Assembly (NCBI GenBank): GCA_963678705.1
Contig: OY783208.1
Location: forward strand, 17,929,486-17,993,485
Source: Panorpa germanica
Lineage: Eukaryota > Arthropoda > Insecta > Mecoptera > Panorpidae
Reading direction: 5' to 3'
DNA length: 64,000 nt
Below, in pieces: positions 2,946 to 64,000 of the stretch. The translations under genes and the position numbers were made by a program. The notes beneath the pieces were generated by a model, which was not told the origin of the DNA, ran no database searches, and was given only the letters and a program-made list of their open reading frames with translations. Every line of letters begins with the position of its first letter. Positions within the stretch are counted from its first letter, which is position 1.

Positions 2946-3133
2946 CATTTCACGTCATACAAATATGGCCGACCATTTCTAGCGCTAAAACTACAATTCA
3001 AATTTTTAATTGCTATATCTCCGTTAACATTTAGATATTTAATAAAATAGACACGCCAATACACATTTATTATCATCAATTTCAATCAGCAATTGAAAAA
3101 TCGACCACTAAAAAATGAGGACACAAGCCCATT
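2946..3133 (-). mobile_element. Foldback MITE (family M1), truncated copy A
   Basis: This is one arm of a non-coding element that recurs across the window and ends in the terminal inverted repeat AATGGGCTTGTGTCCT. The copy retains the CACGTCATAC, TAGCGCTA and CAATTGAAAAATCGACC blocks and one intact terminus at 3133. The other end is missing. No transposase is present in any copy, so it is non-autonomous. Confidence 0.8.
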
Positions 3134-3245
3134 GTTTTTAATTCGTATGATGATAATATATGTCAAGTAAAGTTTCATTTCTAGTGGTAAAGTTTGAAAA
3201 ATCTCAATCCTGAGGTGTTATTTTAGGATGAGAGGATATCTTATT

Positions 3246-3637
3246 TTAGAAACCTTCAATTTTAATTCTTGTAGATGTTTCTGCGTTAGGAGAATCCAGT
3301 GATTCATCCTGATGCTCTCTAGAACATGCATCCTCGGTAATAATTTCCTGTTTAATATCTAAAACACAAAAGTAAAAACGTTATTTGAATTTTAAAAAAT
3401 CAACTATTTTTATTTATAACAACCTGTGCAAATTGCGTCGTTTTCATCTGCAATTTTTGATTCATCTTTATCTGCAAATGTTCCTGCTTCTACAAAAGTT
3501 TTGTGCCACTTGAGAATCAGCGATTCTGATGGTGGTTCTTTTCCATAAATGCTTTTATAATTTAACTGAGTCTGGGAAACAGATTTTGTCTCTATAAACC
3601 ATGAGACGCACTGCGTTTTCTCTTTCCTGTTAGTCAT
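3246..3637 (-). CDS. Small two-exon protein with DUF4817-like helix-turn-helix
   Basis: The exons are 3637-3424 and 3358-3246. The intron has a CACAG/GTTGTT donor and a TGTTTTAG acceptor, and the phases join (ACA G|AT) to give 108 residues. Residues about 8-48 read as the HTH found at the N-terminus of mariner/IS630-like transposases (DUF4817 type): Q-C-V-x-W-F-x-E-T-K-S-V, then Y-G-K-E-P-P, then L-K-W-H-K-x-F-V-E. The second exon encodes an acidic tail with IKQE and RIKIE motifs, as in the leaders of the nearby zinc-finger and THAP genes. A splice acceptor at about 3667 lies just upstream of the ATG, so a 5' exon is likely; the frame stays open to that acceptor. No DDE domain follows, so it may be a domesticated transposase HTH. 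No specific function is claimed. Confidence 0.6.
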
Positions 3638-3659
3638 TTCTTTTACAGTTAATATCAAA

Positions 3660-5043
3660 CAATATTCTGAAAATAAAAAATGTCAATAAAAAAAAAATAA
3701 AAAATATATAATGCCTCTTCTATGAAATAAAAATGTATCAATACTAAGTCGGAACTTCTAAAGGAATTGCTGTTTTGCGTGTGATCTCGAACAAAAGGGT
3801 CGAGTATTTAATCAGTCTTCAGTATTATTTGGTAAATTTGTATTGTGTTTAGTAAATAAATAAAAATAATTGAAAATGGTGTTTAAATAGACAAATTAAA
3901 TAGATCTGAACAATAGACCCTTGTCAAACTGAGTTTTCCCAGGATATATTGTCTATGTAATATATAAAGGAATCATCTCATATAGAACACCCTGATACAA
4001 CTTATATGGATATACATAGTATTTGTTTTATATGAGATAATCTCTCCTATTACTGCACTATATATTTATGTATAGTCCAAATCACGGTAGATCGGCGGTG
4101 ACTTATACTTAACAGAGGTTATAAGAGCGGTATAAATTTATAATACGATAATGAATTTTGTCTTATTCGTTTCTATATACATTATAGAAAAATAAATGAG
4201 TCAGTGCTTTTTAGTTATATCAGCAGTTTATACCCCACAACTTGTTTTAAATATGAGTCACCGCCGAACTCTCGTAACTTCAACCATATATCTAATTTCT
4301 AATACTGTTTTCATATATAACTTATTTCTGCTGGGGGCAAACCCGCCCTACATGACTTTTGTACATTAAACTGACTTTATACCGACCCCAGAAAATCAAC
4401 TACTTCTTTTTTTACTTATTAGGCAAACCCATGTTATGTAGAATTATATTAGAAACATTTCATTAGTAAGTTTATAAATAAATAACTATGGTCAATGAAA
4501 AAATCATGAAAAACAACAGAGTAATTTTTACTTTAATTACTAAATATGAGTGTTAAACAAAAAGGCTTTTCTTGTAAGTTTATCATGAAATTTTCAATTG
4601 TAATTGCTATTTATTAAATGAATAAACATATTGATTATACTATAAAATACAATTTAATTGATAAAATAATTTAGCAAAAAATGCTACGACAGCTACTTTG
4701 TAGTAAGCTAACCTCAAAAAAATGAGCATACGAAAATATGTAAACTGGACTGATTTAGAAAATTTATTAAATATTTCTAATTAAAGTTATATTTATTATA
4801 AAAGAAATGAACTTACTTGCATATATAACTTGTGCTTTTTATAATAATTTTATTTTTCGTTCAGCTATTACTTACAATATTTTCCTTGCTTATTTATACA
4901 TGCGACAAAATAGATAATATTTACTAATGCGGTTTGACACTTATTATTGTTTTAAATATAAAATGAACTCACAACACTTATTAAAACATTATTATTTTAA
5001 CATATTATATAAATTAAAAACGAAAACGCATACAACTGTCAAA
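3660..5043. other. AT-rich intergenic stretch
   Basis: I found no gene. The sequence is dominated by A/T runs and short in-frame stops on both strands. A 5' exon or promoter for the HTH gene at 3246-3637 may lie near 3.7-4 kb but cannot be defined by eye. Confidence 0.4.
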
Positions 5044-6536: not shown

Positions 6537-7847
6537 ATGGCACAGCAAATAAAATCAGAATTAAATGAAACACTGGAAATAGAAAACATGAAAGTAGAAC
6601 CACATGAGGAATGCATTGTTCAATTTGAACCACAAGTCAAAGAGGAGGTCGACGTCACTTCCGATAGAGAAGCAGATTGGCCAGGGGTTTATATTAAATA
6701 TGAACCTGACTATAGTTCACCTGTTGTCCTGTGTAAATATTGCGGTGGCAAGTTTCAAGATTCCTGTAAATTGCAGGAGCACCTGGAGGCCGCACTGGAC
6801 TGCCGAGGAACCAGAACGACAAAAGAACCGCTGGATGGTGATGATAATAGAAGATTCTCGGAACCACAAGGCAGTGGACAATCGGGAATTCACTCTGACA
6901 GGAAGTTATATTCCTGTCATGAATGTGACAAATTCTACACTAGTAGGTTCAATTTAGTTTCTCACCAACGAAGTCATACCGGGGAGCGTCCGTTTTCGTG
7001 TGACGTTTGTAAAAAAACGTTTTTAAGGTCAAGTTATTTAAAGGAACATAAAAAGACGCATTTAGACGTTAATCCTTTTTCATGTGACGTTTGTAAAAAA
7101 ACATTTTCAAGTTCAAGCTATTTAAAGGAACATAAAAAGACGCATTTAGACGTTAATCCTTTTTTATGTGATGTTTGTAAAAAAACATTTTCAAGTTCAA
7201 GCTATTTAAAGGAACATAAAGAGACGCATTTAGACGTTAATCCTTTTTCATGTGACATTTGTAACAAAACATTTTCAAGGTCAAGGAATTTAAAGGAACA
7301 TAAAAACACACATTTAGACATTAATCCTTTTTCCTGTGACATTTGTAACAAAACATTTTCTAGGTCAAGTCATTTAAAGGAACATAAAAAGTCGCATTTA
7401 GACATTAATCCTTTTTCCTGTGACATTTGTAACAAAACATTTTCAAGGTCAAGTTATTTAAAGGAACATAAAAAGACGCATTTAGACGTTAATCCGTTTT
7501 CATGTGACATTTGTAACAAAACATTTTCAGGGTCAAGGAATTTAAAGGAACATAAAAACACACATTTAGACATTAATCCTTTTTCCTGTGACATTTGTAA
7601 CAAAACATTTTCAAGGTCAAGTTATTTAAAAGAACATAAAAAGACTCATTTAGACGTTAATCCTTTTTCCTGTGACATTTGTAACAAAACATTTTCAAGG
7701 TCAATGTATTTAAAAGAACATAAAAACACACATTTAGACGTTAATCCTTTTTCATGTGACATTTGTGAAAAAACGTTTTCATGGTCAAGTAATTTAAGAC
7801 GACATAAAAAGTCTCATTTAGCCGTTAATTCTTTTTCATGTGAATAA
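6537..7847 (+). CDS. C2H2 zinc-finger protein A, 11 regular fingers
   Basis: This encodes a 436-residue putative nuclear DNA-binding protein. Residues 1-60 are acidic and carry psi-K-x-E motifs (IKSE, MKVE, VKEE, IKYE). A degenerate C2HC finger lies near 66-90. Eleven C2H2 fingers follow from about residue 126, nearly all of the form C-D-I/V-C-x-K-T-F-x5-L-K-E-H-K-x-T/S-H. The first two regular fingers are joined by a canonical TGERP linker; after that the linkers are L-D-V/I-N-P, which keep the length but lose the TGEKP sequence. Many fingers are near-identical 84-bp repeats, which suggests recent tandem growth. The protein ends two residues into a further finger (F-S-C-E-stop), so the array was probably longer. 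The start is the first ATG after a splice acceptor. Its targets cannot be read with confidence. Confidence 0.88.
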   Translation: MAQQIKSELNETLEIENMKVEPHEECIVQFEPQVKEEVDVTSDREADWPGVYIKYEPDYSSPVVLCKYCGGKFQDSCKLQEHLEAALDCRGTRTTKEPLDGDDNRRFSEPQGSGQSGIHSDRKLYSCHECDKFYTSRFNLVSHQRSHTGERPFSCDVCKKTFLRSSYLKEHKKTHLDVNPFSCDVCKKTFSSSSYLKEHKKTHLDVNPFLCDVCKKTFSSSSYLKEHKETHLDVNPFSCDICNKTFSRSRNLKEHKNTHLDINPFSCDICNKTFSRSSHLKEHKKSHLDINPFSCDICNKTFSRSSYLKEHKKTHLDVNPFSCDICNKTFSGSRNLKEHKNTHLDINPFSCDICNKTFSRSSYLKEHKKTHLDVNPFSCDICNKTFSRSMYLKEHKNTHLDVNPFSCDICEKTFSWSSNLRRHKKSHLAVNSFSCE

Positions 7848-14062: not shown

Positions 14063-15181
14063 ATGGAGAATTGCAAATTAGAACAAATAAAGCTAGAAGT
14101 TGATGTGGGATTAACTGAACCAATGACAACGTAAAATTTAAACGGAGATTACAAAATAGAAATAGAAGAAGGACGAGTCGAGAATGAAGCAGCGCTATGT
14201 GATGAAATAAAAACAGAATTAAAAAAAAAACCAGAATATATCTCAGATGAAGCTACATATTTACCCCGAGATGTTTACCTCATTAAGCTTGAAGTTCCAG
14301 AGCAACAACTTCAAAGTGAAATGAATAGGAAGATGAAGCCTTATATTTGTGATGTATGTAACAAATTATTGGAGTCTAAGACAGAAATCACAAAACATTT
14401 GCGGGTACATTCAGCAAAGAAACTACACTCTTGTAATACATGTAGTAAAATATTTGCTAATTCGTCAAATTTAAAACGACATAAAAACACACATTCAACG
14501 TTAGAACCATTTTCTTGCAACGAATGTAGTAAAACGTTCAGTCAATCGCATGATTTAAAACGACATAAAAATACACATTTAGACGTAAAACCATTTTCTT
14601 GTGACGAATGTAGTAAAACGTTCAGTCAATCGCATGATTTAAAACGACATAAAAATACACATTTAGACGTAAAACCATTTTCTTGTGACGAATGTAGTAA
14701 AACGTTCAGTCAATCGCATGATTTAAAACGACATAAAAATACACATTTAGACGTAAAACCATTTTCTTGTGACGAATGTAGTAAAACGTTCAGTCAATCG
14801 CATGATTTAAAACGACATAAAAATACACATTTAGACGTAAAACCATTTTCTTGTGACGAATGTAGTAAAACGTTCAGTCAATCGCATGATTTAAAACGAC
14901 ATAAAAATACACATTTAGACGTAAAAACATTTTCTTGTGACGAATGTAGTAAAACGTTCAGTCTATCGCATGATTTAAAACGACATAAAAATACACATTT
15001 AGAAGTAAAACCATTTTCTTGCGGCGAATGTAGCAAAACGTTCAGTCTATTATCTACTTTAAAAAAGCATAAAAACACACATTTAGTTATAAAACCATTT
15101 TCTTGTGACGAATGTAATAAAACTAAAATAATAATTTATCTATATATTAGGAATGATGTAGATCTGCAGAGGGATAGGTGA
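14063..15181 (+). pseudogene. Zinc-finger gene B, interrupted and chimeric
   Basis: The ancestral start at 14063 opens the same leader as ZF-C and ZF-F (M-E-N-C-K-L-E-Q-I-K), but codon 24 is TAA (14132-14134) where ZF-C has GAA. The next useful ATG is at 14321 and gives 286 residues starting at the first finger. Nine complete fingers follow; five share the helix Q-S-H-D-L-K-R and one has L-S-H-D-L-K-R. Linkers are mostly L-D-V-K-P. The last finger stops after C-D-E-C-N-K-T and runs into non-coding 3'-module sequence (K-I-I-I-Y-L-Y-I-R-N), so the end was made by a deletion that removed the remaining fingers. It could still make a leaderless finger protein from 14321, so loss of function is probable, not proven. 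Confidence 0.7.
14507..15105 (+). repeat. 84-bp tandem repeat encoding identical zinc fingers
   Basis: The 84-bp unit is one finger plus linker. Units start near 14507, 14591, 14675, 14759, 14843, 14927 and 15011. The first five or so are almost base-for-base identical, including third codon positions. That points to very recent expansion or gene conversion within ZF-B. Confidence 0.9.
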
Positions 15182-21119: not shown

Positions 21120-22487
21120 ATGGAGAATTGCAAATTAGAACAAATAAAGGTAGAAGTTGATGTGGGGTTAACTGAACCAATGAAAACGGAAAATTTAAGC
21201 AAATGTGTGGAAATAGACATAAAAGAAGAACGAATCGTCAAAGAAGCAGCGCTATATGATGAAATAAAATCAGAATTTAAAAAAGAACCAGAATATAACT
21301 CAGATGAAGCTGCACATCTACCCCGAGATGATTACTTCATAAAGCTTGAAGTTCCAGAGCAACAACTTCAAAGTGAAATGAATACGAGCCTGAAGCCTTA
21401 TATCTGTGATGTATGTAACAAATTGTTGGACTCTGAGGCTGAAATCGGAAAACATTTGCGTGTACATTCAGCAAAAAAACTACACTCTTGTAATACATGT
21501 AGTAAAATATTTGCTAATTCGTCAAATTTAAGACGACATAAAAACATTACACATTTAGGTCTAAAACCTTTTTCTTGTGACGAATGTAGTAAAACGTTCA
21601 GTCGATCGCATGATTTAAAACGACATAAAAACACTCATTTACTTGTAAAACCATTTTCTTGTGACGTTTGTAGTAAAACATTAAGTAGTTCTTTGGGTTT
21701 AAAGCAACATAAAACTAGACATCTAAGTAAAAGGCCATTTTCTTGCAATGAATGTAGTAAAACGTTCATTAGTCCATCGCTTTTAAAGCTACATCAAAAC
21801 ACACATTTAGTTGTAAAACCATTTTCTTGCAATGAATGTAGTAAAACGTTCATTAGTCCATCGTTTTTAAAGCTACATAAAGACACACATTTACTGGTAA
21901 AACCATTTTCTTGTGACGAATGTAGTAAAACATTCAGTAGATCAACTCATTTAAAACGACATAAAAACAGACTTTTAGCTGTAAACCCGTTTTCTTGCGA
22001 CAAATGTAGTAAATCGTTTTATAGTTCATCGGATTTAAAACGACATAAAAACACACATTTAGGTCTAAGACAATTTTCTTGTGATGAATGTAGTAAATCG
22101 TTCAGCCATTCTTCAAATTTAAAACAACATAAAAACACACATTTACTTGTAAAACCATTTTCTTGCGACAAATGTAGTAAATCGTTTAATAGTTTATCGG
22201 ATTTAAAACAACATAAAAACACACATTTACTTGTAAAACCATTTTCTTGTGACGAATGTAGTAAAACATTCAGTAGTTCTTTGGGTTTAAAGCTACATCA
22301 AAACAGACATTTAGCTGTAAACCCGTTTTCTTGCGACAAATGTAGTAAATCGTTTAATAGTTCATCGGATTTAAAACGACATAAAAACACACATTTAGGT
22401 CTAAAACCATTTTCTTGTGATTTATGTAATATATGTTTCTCAACTGCAGGTAATCTAAAGAATCAGCAAAAACGTAATTTACATTAG
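21120..22487 (+). CDS. C2H2 zinc-finger protein C (intact cassette member)
   Basis: The chosen start gives 455 residues; an upstream in-frame ATG at 21078 lies before the splice acceptor and is rejected. Residues 1-95 form the family leader: acidic, with IKVE, IKEE, IKSE, KKEPE and IKLE motifs and a conserved H-L-P-R-D-D-Y-F-I-K block. About 13 fingers follow. The first two (C-D-V-C-N-K-L-L and C-N-T-C-S-K-I-F) are conserved between cassettes; the middle ones differ in their helices. Finger 7 has lost its second zinc histidine (H-K-N-R-L-L) and the last is degenerate (N-Q-Q-K-R-N). Linkers are L-x-V-K/N-P or L-G-L-K-P. It is likely a sequence-specific nuclear regulator; the target is unknown. 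Confidence 0.87.
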   Translation: MENCKLEQIKVEVDVGLTEPMKTENLSKCVEIDIKEERIVKEAALYDEIKSEFKKEPEYNSDEAAHLPRDDYFIKLEVPEQQLQSEMNTSLKPYICDVCNKLLDSEAEIGKHLRVHSAKKLHSCNTCSKIFANSSNLRRHKNITHLGLKPFSCDECSKTFSRSHDLKRHKNTHLLVKPFSCDVCSKTLSSSLGLKQHKTRHLSKRPFSCNECSKTFISPSLLKLHQNTHLVVKPFSCNECSKTFISPSFLKLHKDTHLLVKPFSCDECSKTFSRSTHLKRHKNRLLAVNPFSCDKCSKSFYSSSDLKRHKNTHLGLRQFSCDECSKSFSHSSNLKQHKNTHLLVKPFSCDKCSKSFNSLSDLKQHKNTHLLVKPFSCDECSKTFSSSLGLKLHQNRHLAVNPFSCDKCSKSFNSSSDLKRHKNTHLGLKPFSCDLCNICFSTAGNLKNQQKRNLH

Positions 22488-25667: not shown

Positions 25668-26756
25668 ATAATTTTAATTGTATTAATTTATTAATTAATT
25701 ACTTATATTATTAGTTTATAATATATATTGTTATTAATACAACATTTATTATTAATAAAATAAATACTTCTCTTTAGTTTAAACAATTTAATAAAGTTGC
25801 TGTATTGATTAGACATACAATATAAACTAGTATGTTATAATTTGAAGTATTTTAAAATTGTAATTAAATTAATTTATATTATTATTGAGTTTTTAGTATT
25901 ACATATATTAGTATTTAGTATTACTAGTTTGTGGAACACAGTATTTCTTAACCCGCTAAATTTAAATCTAGTTAATAAAATGCATTTTACTTGTTCAATA
26001 GAACAAGGGGCAATAACCAACTAAATATAATATAACTAAGCAACGGACCATTCTATCCAGTGCGAATTTATCTTAGACTCCATTCAATCTGCTATAGTCC
26101 ACTATAAATTTGTTAAAGATTGGTTGGGGATACCCCCGTTGACACACTACATTCTTAAATTCTAGAAATGTATATTACATGTACTGATAAAGTTAACTAT
26201 CAGGATCTCAAATGTGATTTGTTTTAAATAGTCGCAATATTATTGAAGATATAAACAATTAAAATAGTCGTTTAAAGTCTGCCTTACACTCTACATCTTA
26301 TATACAAATACATCGACTAAAATTCTTGCCCCTAAACAATCTGCAACCAAACATACACCACCACACTTCGTCCAAAAGTCCAAGTTATATACAATCTTTT
26401 ACTTCCATTATTTTTGTTGCTTTTCACATCAATTTTTTTCAGTGCAAACTAATAGCTATTAGCGATTAAACAATACAGGGTGTCCAACAGTCAACGGCTA
26501 CCTTAATTAAATAAAGTAAATGCATAAAGACCGTGGACAATAAATAATTTTAATGTGAAATATTCATTGCATTAAGTCACTTTTCGTTTTATTTTTGTAA
26601 TTTACTTAAATAATCCATCAACTTATTAAAAGCCATTAAATGTCATTCGAGTGTAACGGTTTCTCGATTACCGTGACATGACCGTTACATTGTTTAAATT
26701 GCCTGCACTCTACTAATTGCGTGGCCAACATTATTGATTATTTTCTCAAAGTGTAA
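25668..26756. other. AT-rich intergenic stretch
   Basis: I see no convincing gene. ACAGGGTGTCC at about 26475 and CACCCTGTATT at about 27057 form a possible short inverted-repeat pair around this end of the duplicated block. I could not confirm an element. Confidence 0.35.
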
Positions 26757-48172: not shown

Positions 48173-49906
48173 TCAAATCAAACTCCTTTGAGATATTACA
48201 TGATAACCATCTGATGTTACATGAATTTTTAATGGTTTAAAATATTTATCGAAAGTTATAAGTACCAAATTTTCTGGATCGTTTATTTTTGGTAATATTA
48301 TTTGATAACTTTTTATATGTGAATTAAGTCCAACAGTTACACACTCTTTGAAAGAAAAATAAATCATTTTTCCATCAGATATAATTGCAGTATTAAAACC
48401 GAATACAGGATTATTCTCAGAATCATTACAAACGTGGAAAGCGTACGATGGTTTATATATTTTGTTATTCATTTTTATAGATTCAAACGCCAAAAATTTT
48501 TTTAAATTAATTGATAACTTTTCAAGATTAGTATATTTTACAACTTGACCAAACTTTACAACATGTTTAAATCCTTCTGCTTTGATAAATTTTTCGCATA
48601 AATCAAGTTGCAATTTTTTTGCCAAAGTAAATAAAATATTAATACGGCAGTTTACAACGTGAGCGTATCGCTTCGATATTTTATGAAAAGCCTCAAACCT
48701 TGAACACGAGTAAAATTTCGGTGGGCCAAAAATTTTTATAATCGTTGGATAATGTACTAATAAGTGGCATTTAGCTGTCAAATGCCCCTGAAACGTTTGT
48801 AAATATAATTGATGATGCAGTCTGATTAATTCTCTTAGATAAATAATTTCATTATCTGAAATAATTGTACTTGTTACTATGCTTATTATATCGAATAAAT
48901 AAGTGTATAGCAACCACGCTGGATCATCAGGTGGTACCAGATCCCCGACTATTATTCCAAAATAGGCTATGAGACATGACATTTCAGCCGCGGTAAGTAT
49001 CAAATGCTCATTTTGAATATGAGTATCACTAATCGTAGAAATTTTATTACCACTATCTGCTTCACAATGGTCAAAAAATTTCAGTCGATTGTTAAGTTGA
49101 TTCAGAGTAAAATATTTATTTAGAATACAATGTTTTATTATTTTGCCCATGTCATACCTGCATATACCTAAATACAAATCATGCATTATGTCAATCGTCC
49201 AGTTACAAGTGTTATGAAAAAAATTTATTTCATTAAAAACACATTTATTCTTAACACCGTGGCTACGATTTGATAAGTCTGATTCATAATTAGTTTTATT
49301 ACGGAGCAGTGTTTCATTTTCTTGAACCACTTTCTGCGCTTCCGCTTCAACTTTAGGCATTTTACAGAACCGACAATAGTATTCACTGATGAAACTCTCA
49401 TTAAAACCAAATAGACTATTCACAGCTAAATTGTCACCCAAAACTCCAATCAATACAAAATAAATGCGATGACTTTCTCCGTTAATACTAATTGTTATGC
49501 CAAATTGTGTTAAATCATTTAATTCATCTTTTATCTCAGCAAAGCATCTCTCAGCACCGAATTCTTTATAATCGGAATTATGTATTAATTGGGCTAAAAA
49601 AACATTAGCTGTAGTTGACGCAAATTGAGGTGGTAACGCAGCGATAGAGCAGTATAATCCTCCAACCTTATAAATTCCTGCTGATGTTGAGAGAGGGTTG
49701 TTAATTTCGAAATCATCGTAATAAAGATATAGAGGTATAACAATTTTTTCTTGAAATACTCCAGAAATATTTTTCCACAGTGTTCCTTGAAATAAACTAG
49801 AATAAATATCACCTTGACTTTCAATCCTTGCAGATTCAGTTTGCATAAAATTCATAATAGTTTTAAAAAAAACTTCGTTTTCAATATCAATTTCAGTAGG
49901 CTCCAT
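48173..49906 (-). CDS. CACTA-like transposase, 577 residues
   Basis: Motifs fit Transposase_21-type DDE enzymes as I remember them from animal CACTA-like elements. An acidic D-D-F-E-I-N-N-P-L lies near residues 64-72. L-P-P-Q-F-A-S follows near 93, and G-V-L-G-D-N-L-A-V near 155. Two Cys motifs (Y-C-R-F-C-K-M-P) lie near 180. I-D-I-M-H-D-L-Y-L-G-I-C lies near 240 (compare D-x-M-H-x-E in plant CACTA), and R-F-E-A-F-H-K near 425. The probable catalytic acids are the DD near 64, the D in G-D-N-L and the later D or E, but this needs a structural check. The frame is open from an ATG through to TGA with no introns. It acts in the nucleus on its own inverted repeats if active. Confidence 0.7.
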   Translation of the reverse strand: MEPTEIDIENEVFFKTIMNFMQTESARIESQGDIYSSLFQGTLWKNISGVFQEKIVIPLYLYYDDFEINNPLSTSAGIYKVGGLYCSIAALPPQFASTTANVFLAQLIHNSDYKEFGAERCFAEIKDELNDLTQFGITISINGESHRIYFVLIGVLGDNLAVNSLFGFNESFISEYYCRFCKMPKVEAEAQKVVQENETLLRNKTNYESDLSNRSHGVKNKCVFNEINFFHNTCNWTIDIMHDLYLGICRYDMGKIIKHCILNKYFTLNQLNNRLKFFDHCEADSGNKISTISDTHIQNEHLILTAAEMSCLIAYFGIIVGDLVPPDDPAWLLYTYLFDIISIVTSTIISDNEIIYLRELIRLHHQLYLQTFQGHLTAKCHLLVHYPTIIKIFGPPKFYSCSRFEAFHKISKRYAHVVNCRINILFTLAKKLQLDLCEKFIKAEGFKHVVKFGQVVKYTNLEKLSINLKKFLAFESIKMNNKIYKPSYAFHVCNDSENNPVFGFNTAIISDGKMIYFSFKECVTVGLNSHIKSYQIILPKINDPENLVLITFDKYFKPLKIHVTSDGYHVISQRSLI

Positions 49907-50049
49907 ATTAAATTATTAAAATAACATTATTTAAGTTAAGATAATTAAAAAAAATAATAATAATATTAAATAAATATTTTGAATCACGTAGTTTTAAAAT
50001 CTTGTAACAATCAAAACTCAAGTGAATGATTTTCGATGAATGTCACAAA

Positions 50050-52019
50050 TTATTTTAAGTTAACTGACAACTTATTTAAAACATTGTACACAAACGGTAT
50101 TTGGACATCTGACTCTGTTTTAATTTTATAGAGCCCCCATTGAATAAAATACCAAAAATTTTGGCTTTCGACTGGGTACGCAATTTTGAACATTAAATAA
50201 AATTTAAACAACAAGTCAAATCCTTCAATAAACGTTGAAGTTTCAAATCTAAAATTATCGACTTGAACGTATACTTTTTGCAAGTCCAATTCATTTGGTC
50301 CAACTACGATTAAAAATGGTTGGATTGTAGACTTGGTTTTTGCCTTTTGACAAATCTTTTTTTCACAAGCAGTGTCAACATCCCCAGGAACTTTAACGTG
50401 CATGTAAACGCTTTCTATAGCAGCACTGAGAGCATCTTCTTGGTTGTTGTCTCGAGTGTGCGTCTCCTTTTTTGAGTTTTTACCCTTTCTACGCGGTTTA
50501 ACAGCAGAAAGTAAATGAATAAATATTTCGAGTTGTATAATGTACTTGCTTAACGGAGAAACATTTTTTTCACTCATATCAAGCAACCTGAGCTTTGGAA
50601 GATAATCCTTAGCAATTTTGTCCACTGAAATATTTTTGAGAAGATGAAAAATATTTCCCCAACTCTCGTTTACGTTAATGACTTTATTTTTGTAAACATT
50701 TTCATAATCCGTATTAATCTGTAAATATAAAATTTAAGAAATTAATTTTTTTTAAGCATAAAAAGAGAAAAAATTTTGTTATAAACTTACCAATACAGAG
50801 CATATCGATTCTTTTAGAATAGGCCAGTCATTAAATATGTCAGTTACACTTGAATATTTATTAGAGTCCACTTCAGATCTCCGCAGTTTGAAGGATGATT
50901 TCCAATGCAGCAAAACATCTAATTCTTCTCTATGATGCATCAACCATTGCTTGCTTTCCAGTGCTGAATTGTCATTAGTATTCAAAGAGATGCTTTCACT
51001 CTCACCAGTATTATTAGAACACTCCGAAATTTTTTTTATATTTCTTATAATTACCAATATATTACGGTATTTGTCAACTAATTTTCCCTTTGAAATCTCA
51101 CTCATATTACGTAGAGAATCTTTTTTCTTTACTGGAGGAACGTAAAAAGTTTGTGTACATTCAGCTGGAAATAACTCAACAATTTTTGAAGCTAACTCTT
51201 CAATGTCTTCGTTCACTAAAGTTATATTTTTTTTTAAACAATCATATACAATAATTTCACACAGCGTAGATATCCACGAAGTCTCGAGTTGAATCTTTTT
51301 TTGGTTTGAAATAAGCAAGAGTTCTTTTCCAACAGGGTGTTCACTGAGCAGTTCTTTCAAGTTAAAATAACAAAATTTTGATTCTTTTTTTTTCTTTTTT
51401 TGTGGTAACCCAATGTTATTTTCTGTTATAACCTTATCAAATACATTAGTATTAACGAAATCAACAGGTAAACTACCAATGTCTATATCACTATACTTAT
51501 CACTGATTTTAGAGCAATCACTTGTCACAGGCATCAATTGCCAGCAAGTATTTGGTGGTGATTCATCCTTTACATTAATCCTCTCTTGATGTGAAATCTG
51601 TAAATAAAATAAAATTATTTATCAATAATAAAATTATTTAAAATAATTTTTTGAGAATAATGAATTGAATTTGAAATAATAAATAGTTGTAAAATAAAAA
51701 AGAAACCTACATATTCATTATACTTTTTATTTAAACGAAGTCGTAAACCAACACTAGGGATTATTTCTTTTTGGGTCTCTTCAGGAGTTTTAGTAAGGAA
51801 TTCACCAAGGATTTCAAAGTCAGTTATATGGTTTACTAGAGTGGGAATACAAAAGTAAATTCATAAATTTAGTGTAAATTTTAGAAACGGAATATAAAAA
51901 ATAAAATAGCATGACAAGACAATGAATAGGTTAAGTACTGATACTATTGATACTATCAACTTACCACAAAAAGTCGAGTATAACTCACTCAAATCCCACG
52001 ATTGTAGCAAAGCTTCCAT
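50050..52019 (-). CDS. CACTA accessory protein with SAM-like N-terminus, 4 exons
   Basis: The exons are 52019-51965, 51835-51711, 51597-50791 and 50718-50050. All borders are good GT/AG and phases join, giving 551 residues. The N-terminus (M-E-A-L-L-Q-S-W-D-L-S-E-L, then I-T-D-F-E-I-L-G-E-F-L and I-I-P-S-V-G-L-R-L-R-L) has the spacing of a SAM-like helical bundle. A basic run of K residues lies near residue 115. The rest is hydrophilic, ending in a conserved-looking F-x-x-G-F-D-L-L-F-K-F-Y block. I do not recognise a catalytic domain. It lies 144 bp upstream of the transposase on the same strand and probably assists transposition, as second proteins do in other CACTA elements. Confidence 0.65.
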
Positions 52020-53228: not shown

Positions 53229-56200
53229 GAATATTATTGGAGACGTAGCCATATCACGAGTTTCAAATATGATTGGCGATAAACTTCTATCAGCAACAGA
53301 AGGATTACATGTTGTTCCTTTACTTATAAAATTGAAAGAACCAGGTATAGTCTGAATTCCAATTGAACTAGTTTGTTTTTTAATCAATTGATATGGTTGG
53401 CTCAGAACAGGGCCTTGAGATGCCATGTTTTTTAATGGACCTGCAACTAAATATTTAAAATACAAATATTAAATTTTAAATAAATTACGAATAAAATATA
53501 AAATGCTTAAGATTTAATTTACCTTGTACAGACAATCTTGTAGGACCTGTAGTTGATGAGTTGCTTTCATAATAGTCAATATATCCAGGTGTGCTACTAT
53601 ACACTTTAAAAAAAAAAGAAATAAAACAATCATTATCTTCTTTGTAGAAGAAAGTGGACTATGCCTTTAATAACTCGATTTATAGATAAATTTAATTTTT
53701 CTTTGCAAATTATTTTTATTAAAAATGGGTGGCCGAGGTAAGTAGGTCGTAAAATCAACTTATAAATAACAAATAAACTTATTCCGTAACTGGCAAAGAA
53801 TTCTAACTCACCGTATAACAAACAAATCTACAAAAAACACAATGGGCTTGTGTCCTACGTCTTAATTTCTATAAAAGTGTACTATATTTACTAGAACTGG
53901 TTACTAGAACCTCAAATGTTCAAATATTTTTTAATAACTCTTTAAATGTTAAGAGATATTAACAATTAAAAAAGTCATTTTGTCTCTTTAATTATTAAAG
54001 GGATTCAACGTTGTACACATTCCAAGTGCATGTGACATCACAATCTCTGCTATATGTATTTATATATCAAAATATCAAATATTATTTTCAGCTATTTCAA
54101 GGAACAATAAAATTCTAATATTATGTTTGCCTTAGCAGGTTTAAATAAAATAAAAACTTATTATTCTTTAACTTGACTTGATTATTTGACTACCAACAGC
54201 TACAAAACATTACCACAGCACTGAGCTACTCAACAAATAACTGACGTTAAAATGCATTTCACGTCATACAAATATGGCCAACCATTTCTAGCGCTAAAAC
54301 TACAATTCAAACTTTTAATTGCTATATCTCCGTCAACATTTAGATATTTAATAAAATAGACACGCCAATACACATTTATTAACATCAATTTCAATCAACA
54401 ATTGAAAAATCTACCACTAAAAAATGAGGACACAAGCCCATTACGTTCGTGAACATGATGACACGATACACAATTTAAACGATAAAGCAAATTCTACATT
54501 ATACTCTTTTATTAATAATTGTTTTATATAAGTAAATGAAATTTCTTATATAAGTAAATGTAAGATAAGTAAATGAAATTTCGTGTTATAACTAAATATA
54601 TTCGTTTTGCCAAGGATATATCCTTTGTCTGATAAAAAACAGTTACTAAAAGAATATATTTTGATTATACGTTTCGTACTTTGAGTAGTATTCAATCTTT
54701 TAGCAACCACAATTGATAGGGTGAACCCAAAACCTCCTGTTATGCCAATGACAAAGCCGTTGAGCTCTTCGATGCAAATATAAAAGTACAAGAAAGCGTG
54801 AATGCATAACACACGTCTACTCAGTGTCGTGCGAAAGCTGCGGCTATACGCTTTTACTAATAAAAATTTATCGAACATAAAATTAATATCAAATACTGTA
54901 AAAAACGTGCAGTATAATGCCTTCACACACACACACTCTCGTATGCGTCTCTATTTTATAACAGAGATTGAAAATCAGCGAACGTGACAAACCATACATT
55001 GAAATTTTCTATGACGTTGAATCCCAGGTTATAATTAAAAAAGACAAAATGATTTTAAATGTTAATAATACTGTTAAAAACTGTTAACTGTTAAAAAATA
55101 AAGATATTAAGCATAAGGTACAGAGCTTCTTAAAATTATTTTAACTGGTCAGAAGGCAACACGATGTAGTCTTCTTTTTAATTGACCATTTTAAAATACC
55201 TAAAATAATAAGAATTGAACAACACATTTACTTTTTTAAGTTAAAATAACCATATTCCTTTCCAATCATGAAAATTTGTATAAGATCTTGGAATTACATT
55301 CAATTTTTATCATTTTTTACGCAAACTTTGTAATAAAAACTCGATTATTAAACAAGTTTTTCAATATTTTGTTTCATGAACTTAATTACTTTGGCTTCTG
55401 AACTGCTTACATTTTCCTGAAGGTTGTTTTTGAAACATTACTACAGTTTTCATAAATATTTACATGTTTTCTTGTATATATAGTTTTATATTTTGTTCTA
55501 TTATAAAGCCTACACCTTAAAGAAAGAATTTGTATGCTTTCTTGATCAAATTAATAAAGACAAAATTTTAAAATCAATTGTTGTTTATAGACCTAATCGC
55601 ATTGGCTTTTGAACGGTACATTTAGTAATAAAATATCTTAAATTCATAATCATATGTAAACATACTTACGTTAAAATGATCCTCACAACAAAAATAATTA
55701 CTTTTATCTGAATTTGGAATGATCCTACGTGCAACTTGAAACCAGGCATTTCTTACTTCCGTAATAAGAGGAACATGAATGAAATTTTTATCTGGTGTTT
55801 TATTTGTAGTGTTTGTACACTTAGGTACAAAGCAAGTTCTAAAAGGAATGATGTTAGTAGATTGCCTACCTAAAGTATCATCAGCAAGAGATGAGTTTTC
55901 ACTAGATATATAATCAAAATTCTCATGTGTATTAAGTTCTATTTCATCTGAACTGTCTTCTGGTTCTTCTTTGATTTCTACTTTGAATTCAACACATAAT
56001 GAGTCCTCATTTTTGATTCTTTCAGGATGTACAAATTTAATCATTTCATTTGGAGTCTCTTCAACTTCCAATTTAATTTGTTGCAATTTATTCTCATCCA
56101 TCTTTAAAATGTTCGCTGAAATAAAAGAGAATATGTTTAATATTATCCAAAAGCATATAAAATAAAACACTAACAAACTAATATTTAATAATATGCACAT

Positions 56201-57666
56201 TGGTTGCACATAAAAAAGAAATATAAAACTATACAAAAAAGAACATAACAACTTATTACGAAATATTAAAGTTTAAAAAATCTTTGGATTTACAAATTTG
56301 CAAAAGAAAATATTTTGATCTGGTCAAAAGTCAATACCAAGCTAACCTATTGTTTAGTTTAATTAAATAAAGATGATTAAAAGTGATTCTTACAAATATT
56401 TAAAAGCCAAAGAGAAGGCAATATTATTTATTCGTTAAGAATTAATTCTAGCCTTATTAATTTTAAAGCCTATAAATATCATATTAGAAAGAAAATGTAA
56501 TTTTAAAATATTTAAATGTGATGACAACAAATATAAAAATTAAATTATTATAAATCATCTCTTTATAATAGTATCAACAAGCACACATTAGAAACAGTTC
56601 TTTTTATAAGTATGTAGCTTTTAAGAGTAAATAAGAGTAAAAAAGTATTATTATCAGAATAAAATGTATGAAAATATTAACATGTTTAATGACTTATTAT
56701 TGCCTACATCTGGCTATTATTATAGATGTTTTATTTATAAATGTATCAGCAATACATTGTTCTAAACATTCTTATATTATGCACAACAAAACACACTTAA
56801 CTTTATAAGGTAAAATGTGTTGTTATTTATATTTCTTTATCGGATATTATACTTCTTTAGCAAGTGATTTTTTTTTACTTACCTTAAAATCACAAACAAA
56901 ATGTTGCTATATTATACTTAGAATTAAAACTATTTTTATAACTCCATTTTTAGTTATTATTTTCTAGTATTTCATTCTGCATTTCTTAATTATCAGAGCT
57001 ACAAATATGCAACTATTTATTTAATTAAACACACAGATATAAAAAGTAAAAATTACAGGAATAAAAAATACGTCATACGTCAAAAAATCTGACGTCACTA
57101 TTTTAATTTCTTAAACCTAGCAGTAACACTCTTGCCAGATGAAAAATGAACGTTGAAATAATGACAAAAATGAACTTTAATATTCATTTACAAAAAAATT
57201 AGAAAATTCACATATCTTATAATTAAGTTTTCAAATATTGAATAAAAGAAATTAGTTCATAATACAATTTATCTTTTTTGGTAAATTATATTAATGGTAA
57301 ACTACATTAAAAATTATATACATTATTATATACAAGTAAGTATTATATTAAGTAAAGCTAACTTAACCTAAATTTACTTCTATGTAGAGTGGAACATATA
57401 AAAGTGAATTTAGACGCACCTTCAGAATAAATAATATTGGAAGCTGTGAATTGATTGTTCGTTCCAGCTACAGATATTGAAGGAATTGAACCTATAATTT
57501 TCATATTTCGCCTAAAACAAATAACATACGTTCACTATATTACAAGTGTTCACTACAATAAAACATTTTCTTACCGTCTTTGTAAATATTCCTTAAAAGA
57601 AGCTCCAGTTCTTTTCTTTCTCCTTGTAGTCAAATATAGTCTTGTTTTATTACCACGTCTTGGCAT
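53229..57666 (-). CDS. THAP-domain gene, multi-exon
   Basis: Supported exons are 57666-57575 (basic start M-P-R-R-G-N-K), 57511-57420, 56115-55670, 53596-53523 and 53446-53229. The first three join in phase (2, then 1), and so do the last two. The third exon also has its own ATG at 56101. It encodes an acidic leader (IKLEVEE, ERIKNE, KVEIKEEPED) and then a THAP zinc finger: C-F-V-P-K-C-x(32)-W, then Y-F-C-C-E-D-H-F, the C-x-x-H half. The exon ends exactly at H-F-N with a strong GTAAGT donor. An exon carrying the rest of the THAP domain (phase 0 in, 2 out) is missing between 55669 and 53600, an intron now holding a MITE. The later exons are low-complexity Ser/Thr/Gly sequence. The donor at 53228 shows the gene continues. 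It is a likely DNA-binding regulator. Confidence 0.65.
53841..54442 (-). mobile_element. MITE M1, full-length copy H
   Basis: This 602-bp copy has both termini (AATGGGCTTGTGTCCT and AGGACACAAGCCCATT) and can serve as the reference for the family. It is non-coding. It lies in the large THAP-gene intron. Confidence 0.85.
54443..55669 (-). other. THAP-gene intron with R2 repeat
   Basis: The block 54915-55075 belongs to repeat family R2, with a (CA)n start and CGTATGCGT, then a GACGTTGAATCCC block; other copies are at 47379-47507 and 62100-62270. The missing THAP exon could lie here but I do not see it. A 128-codon open stretch at 54932-54546 has no recognised motif and overlaps the repeat. Confidence 0.4.
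56116..57419 (-). other. THAP-gene intron 2
   Basis: This is very AT-rich with no exon seen between the acceptor at 56116 and the donor at 57419. An internal promoter for a shorter THAP transcript starting at the 56101 ATG may lie here. That is a guess based only on the second ATG. Confidence 0.35.
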
Positions 57667-59109
57667 TGCTAAATATTATAAATGAAACACAAAATAAACC
57701 TCAAACGAAAAAATGCCTATTATATGCAGCAAACAATATATTGAATACTAAGATGAAAGCCTTTCCATATTCTCAACTAACTCAGAACGATATTAGTTTA
57801 GAGCCTGTAAATGGTATTGATAAAATAGAGAGACAACATACACCATACAGCATAACATACTCCAGATATGATACACACATACGCACAAAAATATATGCAC
57901 ACATGCATACAAGTCAGCATCTTAAACTGCCTCTGACAATTAATTACTCCCACCATTAACCCCCTGCCCGATTCTTCACCGCATCCTAATGCTGGCGAGT
58001 GATTTATTGCATAAAATAATTCAACAATATGACTTAGTTTAATACATTTTCTAATTGGTATTTTAAGTCGAAAATTATCAAAGATAATGAATTATTCAAG
58101 GGTAAGGTTAAACCTACAAGTTTATATGTTCAAATTTTTAATATTATAATCTTAAGGGCACAATACCTTAAACCACCTTAAACATTGCAAAAATTGGTAC
58201 TTGTTAGGAATTAAATTGTACTAGTTGCATACATATTTTTAAAATTTCTGCATTACAAAACCTTTTATTTATCTTTATTTAATACATTTTACCAAAAAAA
58301 TATTTTCTAAAGAGTAAATGTTTGATAGAAAATATATAATACGAAGACACGATTTATATTAAATCTTAAGAGACGATCCCCTTAAGAAATGGTAGTATGA
58401 ATATGCTTCTTAGAAGAAAACAGTACTTCAAAGAGATTTAAAAGTTATTTTTTAATGGATGCAGTAGTTTTTAAAATTAACATACGTTCGGATGTATTTT
58501 TGTCACTTGTTGTAATTCACTACGAAAACAATAAAAAAACCTAAAATAAGAAAACCTTTTCAATCTTAATTTGATATATACATATAAGTACTAAGTTGTG
58601 AAATTCCGTAAATATAATTTGGGGGAACAAGAGACCATATTTTCTCCTTTACAAACACATATTTTTTAAGAAAATGTAATACTAAGAAGAAATGTGTAAT
58701 CAAAGTCCTACATACTGAAATCAATTGTAAGATGTAGAATAGATAGTTTAATACTATTTTTAAAATAGACTAGTATAATAATTAACATACTATTAATTTT
58801 GACATATTTTAGCGAATGACTTTGACGATAAACCAAGCCTGTCATAGCAAACTAAACTATTTTGTTATGTTAAAATATGAAAAAAGAAATCTATTTAAGA
58901 CGTCTCTTGTATTTTCTATCTTTTATTGTTTTAATTGTATTCTTTGCAGTTGCTAATTTGTGACAGTTATATATTTTTAATTAAAATTTTGAGGTTATTT
59001 TTATATTTGTAATACAACTTGACAATACCAGACATGATTGTGTTTAATATTATACATTTTTTATTTAATTACAGTAATCGCTTTCTTATTTAAACACAAT
59101 TCTATTAAA
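57667..59109. other. Region between the divergent THAP and ZF-E genes
   Basis: The two genes are transcribed away from each other, so both promoters should lie in this 1.4 kb. A 3' splice site (TTTAATTACAG at about 59073) precedes the ZF-E start. The THAP first coding exon is likewise preceded by an acceptor at 57669. No other gene is seen. Confidence 0.45.
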
Positions 59110-59796
59110 ATGAACGAAGAAAAACAACAAATAAAACTGGAACTTAATCAGAAGTTAAATTTTACTATAAAAGTAGAAGATACATGTGTAAGCAAGAAAA
59201 ATACCTTACATGAAGAATGTGCCTCTGTAAATGAGAAAATATCACGAGATGAGTTCAAGGTGATAATCAAAGAAGAACCAGTTGAGAATTCAGATGAAGC
59301 AGAAACTTCAGTTCATGAAAATATTAGATTTGAACCTATGAGAAGATCAATCAAAATTATCGAAACTGAAAGCAAGATAAAAAAACTTGAATCAAAATTG
59401 AACAAGTTATATATTTGCGAAATATGTAATACATCATTTAACAAAGCGGAAATTGTGCAACATTTGCTTGTACACTACGGCAAGAAATCATATTCATGTA
59501 ATGAATGTAATAAGTCTTACACTCGGAATGATAGTTTAGTTATGCATAAACGGAGCCACACTGGAGAAAAGCCGTTTTCTTGTGACATATGTAATAAAAT
59601 GTTTGCAAGAACACATACCTTAAAACGACATAGAAATACACATTTTAATTTGAAACCGTTTTCTTGCACTCAATGTGTTAATCAGTATGGCACTTCAGAT
59701 GAATTCAAACGTTTTTCTTGTACAGAATGCAGTAAATCCTATGGACGAATAAGTAATCTAAACCGACATAAGAAAATACATCTAAATAATTTCTAA
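59110..59796 (+). CDS. C2H2 zinc-finger protein E, 228 residues
   Basis: The start is the ATG after the acceptor at about 59073; an in-frame ATG at 59038 lies in the intron and is rejected. The leader (residues 1-100) has IKLE, IKVE and IIKEEP motifs and closely parallels the THAP-gene leader (E-F-K-V-x-I-K-E-E-P-x3-S-D-E and H-E-N). Fingers: C-E-I-C-N-T-S-F; C-N-E-C-N-K-S-Y, which has a canonical T-G-E-K-P linker; C-D-I-C-N-K-M-F; a damaged one that lacks its histidines (C-T-Q-C-V-N-Q-Y ... D-E-F-K-R-F-S); and C-T-E-C-S-K-S-Y. It is a distant relative of the cassette family. Probable nuclear DNA-binding protein. Confidence 0.85.
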   Translation: MNEEKQQIKLELNQKLNFTIKVEDTCVSKKNTLHEECASVNEKISRDEFKVIIKEEPVENSDEAETSVHENIRFEPMRRSIKIIETESKIKKLESKLNKLYICEICNTSFNKAEIVQHLLVHYGKKSYSCNECNKSYTRNDSLVMHKRSHTGEKPFSCDICNKMFARTHTLKRHRNTHFNLKPFSCTQCVNQYGTSDEFKRFSCTECSKSYGRISNLNRHKKIHLNNF

Positions 59797-60546
59797 AGAA
59801 TCTTAGAGTTTTTTAGTCTCAGAAGTTTAGCTAGTAAAACAAATATATGATAAATATGTAAATGCATAACCGTACAAACATTTTGTCATATCGTAGTAAT
59901 GTCGCATATGTCTGATTAGCCTTTGTGTGACATTTTTTGAAGTACGTTCTACGCCACAGTTCGAAAATATATTTTGTTAGGATTTGGTTACGTTCAGGAC
60001 TTCATAAATGGAGTGTGAAATTGGCGCTAGTTGTGCGACTAGATTATTATAGAGGAGGGTTATGTAGAAGCGCATTAGTTGAAATCTAAGTAGACGTGGG
60101 GTAATGCATTTTACTGAGCCTCAGTTGCCCAGTACTAACATATGTTCTCCCGAACTCTGTTTGACTACTGTCTAACCGTTCTCTGATGCGAGATTGCTAA
60201 GATACGACAAATTGTTTGGAGGGTAGGTATTAAGAAAGGAGTAAGATACCGATTTTTATTATAAACATTTTTCGTTAAGTTAACTCCGGTCTTTGACAAA
60301 ACTAGATCAAAACCAATTTTTTAAAGTTAATATTGTAATTATAGTTTATAGTTTAACTGACTATTGAAAAGTCGGAACTAAATAAATTCAAAAATTTGTT
60401 GAAGATAGTAAAATTAATTACTAATTTCGCAGTTAACTTAAAATTTTAAACATATTTACTATAAAAATTAACCAATTTATACAATTTGGTAAACATAAAA
60501 TTATATAGCATTTATTAATACATTTATATGTTAAAACAATAAACAA
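59797..60546 (+). other. Stretch between ZF-E and the truncated ZF cassette
   Basis: This holds the ZF-E 3' flank. I see no clear AATAAA within the first 200 bp. There is no gene, and no sign of the cassette 5' module. Confidence 0.35.
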
Positions 60547-61016
60547 TTTGTCAATCAACTCAATTAAAACTGCATAAAATTACACATTTAGTTGTAAATC
60601 CATTTTCTTGTGACCTATGTAATAAAACGTTCAGTCTATCGCATGATTTAAAACAACATAAAAACACACATTTAGTTGTAAAACCATTTTCTTGCGATGA
60701 ATGTAGTAAAACGTTCAATCGTTTATCGCATTTAAAAGAACATAAAAACACACATCTAGATGTAAAACCATTTTCTTGCGACGAATGCAGTAAAACGTTT
60801 AGAATATTATCTAATTTAAAACAACATAAAAACACACATTTAGTTTTAAAACCATTTTCTTGCGATGAATGCATTAAAACGTTCAGTCGATCAACTCAAT
60901 TAGAACGACATAAAAACACACATTCAGTTACAACACCATTTTCTTGTGGTTTATGTAATATATGTTTCTCAACTGCAGGTACTCTAAAGAGACATCTAAA
61001 ACGTAATTTCCATTAG
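60547..61016 (+). pseudogene. Zinc-finger cassette D, 5'-truncated
   Basis: An open frame without an ATG starts inside a finger (S-T-Q-L-K-L-H-K) and contains four intact fingers, one degenerate one and the degenerate terminal finger (C-G-L-C-N-I-C-F-S-T-A-G-T-L-K-R-H-L-K-R-N) shared with ZF-C. The leader, first fingers and 5' module are missing. Linkers are L-V-V-K-P and L-D-V-K-P. The finger sequence itself is undamaged, so truncation was probably recent. Confidence 0.82.
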
Positions 61017-63615: not shown

Positions 63616-64000
63616 ATGGAGGATTCTAAATCCGAACAAATAAAGCTAGAAGTTGATGTTGGATTAACTGAACCAATAGACATGGAAAATTTAAACGGAG
63701 ATATCAAAATAGAAGTAGAAGAAGGACGCATCGTCAAAGAAGCAGCGCTATATGATGAAATAAAAACAGAATTTAAAGAAGAACCAGAATATAGTACAGA
63801 TGAGACTACACATTTACCCCGTGATGATTACTTCATAAAGCTTGAAGTTCCAGAGCAACAACGTCAAAGTGAAATGAATAGGAAGATGAAGCCTTATATC
63901 TGTGATGTATGTAACAAATTGTTCGACACTAAGGGAGAAATCATAAAACATTTGCGTGTACATTCAGCAAAGAAACTACATTCTTGTAATACATGTAGTA
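63616..64000 (+). CDS. C2H2 zinc-finger protein F, 5' part (runs off window)
   Basis: The first 128 codons are intact. The leader M-E-D-S-K-S-E-Q-I-K-L-E-V-D-V-G-L-T-E-P is like ZF-B and ZF-C. It continues with IKIEVEE, IKTE, KEEPE and the H-L-P-R-D-D-Y-F-I-K-L-E block, then the conserved first finger (C-D-V-C-N-K-L-F) and the start of the second (C-N-T-C-S). No stop interrupts it, unlike ZF-B. The finger array lies outside the window. Confidence 0.85.
   Translation, partial: MEDSKSEQIKLEVDVGLTEPIDMENLNGDIKIEVEEGRIVKEAALYDEIKTEFKEEPEYSTDETTHLPRDDYFIKLEVPEQQRQSEMNRKMKPYICDVCNKLFDTKGEIIKHLRVHSAKKLHSCNTCS

Follow-up and report, generated by a model that had tools for sequence, protein, structure and literature searches.

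An acidic leader with SUMO-consensus motifs shared by an expanded C2H2 zinc-finger family and a THAP gene of the mecopteran Panorpa germanica

In a 64,000-nucleotide stretch of the genome of Panorpa germanica (Insecta, Mecoptera; GenBank assembly GCA_963678705.1, contig OY783208.1, positions 17,929,486 to 17,993,485 of the forward strand; hereafter the window), a THAP gene and several C2H2 zinc-finger genes start with the same kind of acidic leader rich in psi-K-x-E, the acceptor consensus of SUMO. The question is whether this likeness reflects common descent, convergence of acidic sequences or, as the initial annotation proposed, the shuffling of a portable regulatory module onto C2H2, THAP and transposase helix-turn-helix (HTH) domains, in the manner of an insect counterpart of the KRAB-type zinc-finger (ZNF) silencers. 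Sequence comparison identifies the leader as a conserved tail at the N-terminus of a large C2H2 zinc-finger family that has expanded in tandem. To the full reading, in which a THAP gene gained this tail once and the tail acts as a SUMO acceptor that recruits repressors, we assign a probability of roughly 0.55. The window is part of a 24.8-Mb contig (C5), and all genome searches described below cover a single genome, that of P. germanica (464 Mb, 249 contigs).

Homology of the leaders

The leader of the THAP gene (55841..56101, minus strand) spans 87 amino acids from the ATG at 56101 to just before the THAP domain and reads MDENKLQQIKLE...VEFKVEIKEEPEDSSDE...HEN. It is followed by the first-exon part of the C2CH THAP domain (55670..55840, minus strand; Pfam PF05485, 2e-7), which covers profile positions 1-60 of 87 and ends at a GT donor-like site (55669). 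The ZF-E leader (59110..59406, plus strand, 99 amino acids) starts with the ATG at 59110, reads MNEEKQQIKLE...DEFKVIIKEEPVENSDE...HEN and runs into the C2H2 fingers, which extend through the stop codon (59407..59796, plus strand; Pfam zf-C2H2, 2.8e-18). Both leaders lie where the initial annotation had placed them, and the parallel that it drew between them holds: their local alignment scores 103, a value not attained by any of the 1000 shuffles made under each of three schemes, including two that leave the psi-K-x-E blocks intact. The THAP leader also aligns with those of ZF-B (14063..15178), ZF-C (21120..22484, leader 21120-21395) and ZF-F (63616..63999, leader 63616-63891; all on the plus strand) with scores of 77, 86 and 92, respectively, again reached by 0 of 1000 shuffles in each scheme.

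A leader profile was derived from the leaders of 20 C2H2 genes located elsewhere in the genome, holding out the window genes, the THAP leaders and the THAP-like leader of the C2H2 gene L029. This profile detects the THAP, ZF-E, ZF-B, ZF-C and ZF-F leaders with 43.1, 30.2, 64.6, 116.0 and 117.5 bits, compared with 17.3, 17.8, 17.5, 17.9 and 22.1 bits for the best of 1000 block shuffles of each. Given these profile scores, ZF-B, ZF-C and ZF-F, initially described along with ZF-A as carrying looser versions of the leader, are full homologues; the leader of ZF-A (6537..7844, plus strand) is borderline, at 18.7 bits against 18.4 for its best shuffle. Compared as DNA, the THAP leader scores 77 against the L029 leader and 64 against the ZF-E leader, the maximum of 300 codon shuffles being 42. 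This speaks for homology, since convergence at the amino acid level alone does not predict similarity of the DNA.

Sequence comparison therefore confirms that the THAP, ZF-E, ZF-B, ZF-C and ZF-F leaders are homologous, with ZF-A as a borderline case. The alternative, that unrelated leaders rich in K and E converged or are alike in low complexity, is very improbable. The composition of the leader is indeed biased, and ZF-A does no better than its best shuffle, but when the leaders are set against shuffled acidic sequence, the check suggested at the outset, the other five stand far above block-preserving shuffles of themselves. With the held-out profile this rules out convergence for five of the six window leaders, and for the THAP–ZF-E and THAP–L029 pairs the DNA-level similarity rejects it as well.

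The homology has clear bounds. Upstream of the ATG, the similarity among the THAP gene, ZF-E and L029 is within the shuffle range, which gives no ground for proposing a common promoter. The HTH gene (DUF4817; 3413..3682, minus strand; Pfam PF16087, 6.1e-7) was initially noted to end in IKQE and IKIE motifs; these do exist, in an open reading frame (ORF) at 3249-3380 on the minus strand, but the leader profile has no match there at E<=1, which puts these motifs outside the leader homology. In a tree of 29 leaders, the THAP leader falls beside those of ZF-E and L029; this placement is unsupported, so that the donor gene is not singled out.

Distribution of the leader in the genome

A genome search with the ZF-F leader alone gives at least 150 matches (150 scored of 858 candidates, hence a lower bound), of which 143 lie on C5 and the other 7 on three small contigs (C84, C136 and C210). 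The whole ZF-E protein has 293 matches, many of which span the fingers only. The THAP leader alone gives at least 150 scored matches at E<=10; 8 of these are copies of the THAP gene, and the others, starting from E 1.9e-5, are mostly individually weak.

From these several hundred leader matches, 48 non-THAP loci were inspected. Twenty come from earlier match lists, 12 via the THAP exon (L029-L040) and 8 via the whole ZF-E protein (L041-L048); another 20 were hand-picked at roughly even steps along the match list of the ZF-F leader alone, and the last 8 are dispersed or odd matches to the THAP leader alone. The query that retrieved L041-L048 contained fingers and hence favors them; the remaining 40 loci are free of that bias. 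A C2H2 gene, intact or broken, is present at all 48 loci. Among the damaged ones, the frame of L084 ends within its first finger, two stop codons interrupt the leader of L096 ahead of an in-frame array, and L105 is frame-broken; the match of L103 to the leader profile is weak (E 0.08). By profile match together with the presence of fingers, ZF-E, ZF-B, ZF-C and ZF-F clearly belong to the leader-C2H2 family, ZF-A is borderline and the HTH gene fails. A comparison of the leader profile with viral contigs of IMG/VR produced 600 pattern matches, none of which was confirmed.

Leader and fingers share one open frame and are encoded by a single exon, which follows directly on an intron-acceptor-like site; no separate exon encodes the leader. 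An acceptor-like AG lies 14 to 35 nucleotides upstream of the ATG in the THAP gene, ZF-E, ZF-A, ZF-C, ZF-F and L029. For example, the sequence directly before the THAP start (56102..56117, minus strand) is TTTATTTCAG, 14 nucleotides, ATG, and a similar AG, read from the sequence, precedes the ZF-E start by 35 nucleotides (59073..59109, plus strand).

Repeated shuffling of a promiscuous module onto many DNA-binding domains would account for a leader found on two unrelated domains of this kind, and the 48 inspected loci are a fraction of all matches, so that further fusions could exist. However, this scenario is improbable: all the inspected non-THAP loci encode C2H2 proteins, the HTH gene is devoid of the leader, the leader has no separate exon, and the THAP fusion amounts to one lineage of 8 near-identical copies, as opposed to 42 other THAP loci with no joined leader. 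Thus, of the initial proposal, one homologous leader on both C2H2 and THAP proteins stands on profile, shuffle and DNA-level scores, and the suggested pairing check, run in one genome, links it to C2H2 fingers at each inspected non-THAP locus and to one THAP lineage; shuffling onto many domains does not stand.

The THAP fusion and its copies

The THAP exon occurs at 8 places with 96-100% identity, 7 on C5 and 1 on C84. At six of these places, a copy of ZF-E lies within about 11 kb and the 55.1-60.5 kb region of the window recurs in pieces; the head-to-head THAP/ZF-E region as a whole (55092..60551) recurs in pieces elsewhere on C5, those longer than 500 bp being 92-99% identical. The leader-THAP frame is open in 8 of 8 copies. 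A Pfam search for THAP domains (150 scored of 216 candidates) gives at least 133 matches at E<=0.01, including the 8 leader-THAP copies. In 42 other THAP loci (L017-L028 and L049-L078), inspected with 1.5-kb flanks, no leader is joined to the THAP domain; L067 and L073 have chance-level hits to the leader profile only. The combination of 8 near-identical leader-THAP loci with 42 THAP loci to which no leader is joined points to a single fusion and not to free shuffling, and the simplest history compatible with these sequences appears to be one fusion followed by segmental duplication. Given that the leader is found on many C2H2 genes and in one THAP clade, transfer from a C2H2 gene to the THAP gene would be the simplest direction.

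At two of the other THAP loci, a leader-bearing ORF lies about 1 kb from the THAP domain in head-to-head orientation, like the THAP and ZF-E genes of the window (L028, THAP at about 1501-1686 on the plus strand and ORF 3-437 on the minus strand; L024, THAP on the minus strand and ORF 2708-3184 on the plus strand). Such neighborhoods of THAP and leader genes could favor fusion.

A second THAP exon is present in the 7 other copies (L010-L016), with an in-frame stop in L012, and is absent from the window copy. A stretch similar to window positions 55207-55374 is found also beyond exon 2 in other copies and once in the window copy. Since this repeat flanks the far side of exon 2 elsewhere and is single here, exon 2 of the window copy was likely lost by deletion between direct repeats. 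These observations bring up the possibility that local duplication left the THAP gene with a leader that has no function in its protein and is decaying. The absence of exon 2 from the window copy and the flanking repeats that suggest its deletion are what such decay would produce, but the open leader-THAP frame in all 8 copies and the retention of exon 2 in 7, albeit with an in-frame stop in one, argue against it. Moreover, in the 8 copies pooled, the ratio of nonsynonymous to synonymous change (pN/pS), computed over pairs that are not independent, is 0.20 in the leader, i.e., about a fifth, and 0.06 in the THAP part. We consider this alternative improbable, if somewhat less so than repeated shuffling.

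Two further sets of THAP sequences were observed. One comprises some forty open frames (a count by eye) that resemble each other, are for the most part 71 amino acids long and match THAP positions 1-47; they are dispersed over many contigs and look like a transposon family with a THAP fragment. A regular array of near-identical THAP matches, spaced about every 14 kb, occupies C3:24520804-24562822.

SUMO consensus motifs and selection on the leader

The leader comprises about 80 amino acids, is acidic and usually contains three to five psi-K-x-E motifs; the THAP leader has four within its first 69 residues. On average, 4.17 motifs are present per leader (range 0-6; 54 unique leaders, near copies included), compared with 0.40 in shuffled sequences; acidic-extended SUMO motifs were also counted. 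Five boxes can be delineated, which are kept in 26, 13, 21, 26 and 15 of 29 non-redundant leaders, and the best conserved columns after the start methionine are the K and E of the boxes, and next the psi of box 1. For 20 C2H2 leaders of full length and without gaps, which form 190 non-independent pairs, pN/pS is 0.21 for the K and E of the boxes, 0.26 for psi and 1.18 for x; the values are 0.63 in the remaining columns and, for charged columns other than these, 0.42. Of 5000 random draws of 10 charged columns, 1.3% are equally conserved, and conservation is higher in the K and E columns within boxes than in the other charged columns (p = 1e-4). The recognition of psi-K-x-E as the SUMO acceptor pattern in these leaders is therefore upheld, and selection on the leader appears to follow the SUMO consensus, in part circularly for K and E: constrained psi, K and E together with a free x fit the prediction for recognition of this consensus.

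The leader is predicted to be disordered. In an AlphaFold2 model of ZF-F (from a 6-row alignment), the predicted local distance difference test (pLDDT) score stays under 50 for almost all of residues 1-89 and is 69-84 in the finger part; a low-confidence helix is predicted at residues 39-52 of the leader. In a charge-hydropathy plot, the disordered side contains 26 of the 29 leaders. In 16 leaders (six from the window and ten from elsewhere), Pfam finds no family at the cut-off, the best matches, DUF6686 (E 0.003) and ApeA_NTD1 (E 0.11), both being below it; nor does a search of the Protein Data Bank (PDB) with the leader give any match at E<=1. IKEEP-like leaders are common at the start of predicted C2H2 proteins of insects.

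These properties invite an alternative function, in which the leaders are homologous but form an acidic tail for transcriptional activation or for a dedicated partner other than SUMO, the K-x-E boxes being short linear binding motifs. The acidity and predicted disorder of the leader and the one low-confidence helix would suit such a tail, and the conserved residues could equally form a binding motif. Nevertheless, selection on psi-K-x-E with a free x, repeated over five separate boxes, fits Ubc9 better than a single docking helix, and we regard the activation or partner tail as the most serious competitor of the SUMO-acceptor reading and, on balance, unlikely.

Variation of the finger arrays

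Analysis of 330 unique fingers from 49 ORFs reveals that positions -1, 2, 3 and 6, those of the DNA contacts, are the four most variable positions of the finger. Over all close pairs, the contact codons have a pN/pS of 1.26-1.52 and the remaining codons of the fingers one of 0.19-0.57, the values varying with the filter. In disjoint sets of 46, 31 and 9 finger pairs, the contact values are 1.27, 1.02 and 0.56, and those of the other codons 0.23, 0.23 and 1.04. These sequence comparisons show weak constraint or diversifying change at the DNA contacts; positive selection, suggested by the set of all pairs, is not robust in the disjoint pairs and is not claimed.

Comparison with known systems

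The closest known systems are the KRAB-, ZAD- and FiNZ-ZNFs, which the leader family resembles in form without being a member of any. The KRAB box of the transposon-silencing KRAB-ZNFs binds KAP-1/TRIM28, and in place of this box the family described here has a predicted-disordered tail with SUMO motifs; no KRAB box is detected by Pfam in the six window genes, in their six leaders or in ten leaders elsewhere. As to the pattern of expansion, the likeness to KRAB-ZNFs proposed in the initial annotation is borne out by copy number, clustering and variability of the contact residues. In tetrapods, too, tandem arrays and variable DNA contacts are combined with a conserved N-terminal effector-like region (described in part in PMC6444547 and PMC10547256).

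The ZAD-ZNFs of arthropods are similarly expanded C2H2 families with a common N-terminus, but zf-AD (PF07776) was found in none of the 16 leaders scanned. A separate zf-AD set exists in the same genome, with at least 150 scored matches, 148 of which are on contigs other than C5. At C3:20817689-20866856, near-identical zf-AD matches form a regular array, about one every 6.2 kb with one gap.

Host-transposase fusions with a ZNF-type effector region have reportedly arisen, as in KRABINER. The THAP fusion is alike in joining a ZNF-type effector to a kind of DNA-binding domain that is also found in transposases, and differs in that the junction falls within a single exon and bears no trace of splicing-mediated capture.

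Closest in form are the FiNZ-ZNFs described from cyprinid fish: they comprise hundreds of C2H2 genes in a lineage-specific expansion, with a short, glutamate-rich common N-terminus unlike known domains, and their knock-down derepresses transposons (PMC10547256). A glutamate-rich N-terminus common to an expanded C2H2 family is also what the P. germanica genes have. FiNZ is described as a sequence of 28 amino acids with its own exon, whereas the P. germanica leader is about 80 amino acids long and is located in the finger exon, a comparison made by description, not by sequence; further differences from that description are the psi-K-x-E boxes under selection and the one transfer to a THAP gene. 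Within insects, the ZF271-like/APEZ expansions of Hemiptera (the milkweed bug Oncopeltus and an aphid) are likewise tandem, young and expanding C2H2 genes with disrupted copies, which are reported to consist of fingers with no other domain and no known partner (PMC6444547), whereas a conserved leader is present here. According to the same source, insects lack a direct KAP-1 orthologue and other partners are worth seeking (PMC6444547). The nearest precedent for an N-terminal psi-K-x-E site is Drosophila Bonus/TIF1, which is SUMOylated at IKQE, a modification that is needed for repression and influences association with SetDB1 (PMC10672805). Bonus is a single co-repressor with one main site and is likened to the leader family by motif and not by sequence kinship. 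A literature search, at the level of titles and the beginnings of abstracts of open-licence papers, found no SUMO leader on an expanded insect ZNF family.

Other features of the window

The leader of ZF-B contains a stop codon (TAA at 14132-14134) ahead of the C2H2 array, and because of this stop the copy is probably broken or starts downstream of it. The ZF-C leader is followed by a C2H2 array. The ZF-F frame includes the leader and the first fingers and runs past the window, the open frame in the genome being 367 amino acids long. At 60543..61013 (plus strand), there is a C2H2 array with no leader in its open frame, a probable fragment. ZF-A has a short divergent leader (6537-6722), then, from 6723 onward, a degenerate C2HC-type finger and the C2H2 array; degenerate first fingers, often of the C2HC type, are also present between leader and array in L029, L038, L040, L044, L047, L099 and L100, and may be an ancestral feature of the family that is seen in its more divergent leader genes.

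Inside the zinc-finger cluster, at 23031-25673 and 33945-38559, are ORFs that, from motifs in their translations, we take to resemble a Copia-type retroelement and a Helitron. Three long ORFs occupy 48176-51618 on the minus strand, the longest of which (579 amino acids) has no Pfam match.

Proposed function

Under the scheme that we favor, a THAP gene located head-to-head with a member of the family would have gained the leader once, and the neighborhood would then have spread by segmental duplication. The variable fingers, or the THAP domain, would select the DNA target; Ubc9, aided by a PIAS-type ligase, would put SUMO on the leader; and SUMO would draw SUMO-binding repressors, e.g., the SetDB1/H3K9me3 machinery, with transposons as the leading candidate targets. 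SUMO attachment, repression and targets are what we infer from the motifs and the precedents above; as for the KRAB-like interpretation, it is plausible in its evolutionary pattern and putative on the functional side.

Several observations weigh against this scheme. Because frequent occurrence of the motif guided the choice of the boxes, the conservation tests for K and E are partly circular, the free x being less affected. For the leader as a whole, pN/pS is only moderately lower than 1 (0.43-0.77, according to the pairs used); psi-K-x-E is entirely missing from L044, and of the five boxes, three are absent in 8, 14 and 16, respectively, of the 29 non-redundant leaders. The motif is short and common, and would also suit an acidic activation or binding tail. 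Shuffling of the arrays may explain the pN/pS of the contact residues, given that this value falls in disjoint pairs and that synonymous divergence at the contact codons is raised too. Finally, the window THAP copy may be dead, since it lacks exon 2.

A bolder and rather doubtful extension is that P. germanica has a KRAB-like system of its own, in which a multi-site SUMO platform would be common to hundreds of rapidly changing C2H2 proteins and to a single THAP protein, SUMO serving as the adaptor for transposon silencing of the SetDB1 type with no KAP-1 orthologue. On the SUMO-acceptor reading itself, the conserved five-box leader is a concrete candidate effector for an expanding insect zinc-finger family, and the THAP fusion, a domain swap that arose naturally, poses the question of whether the tag acts on another DNA-binding domain.

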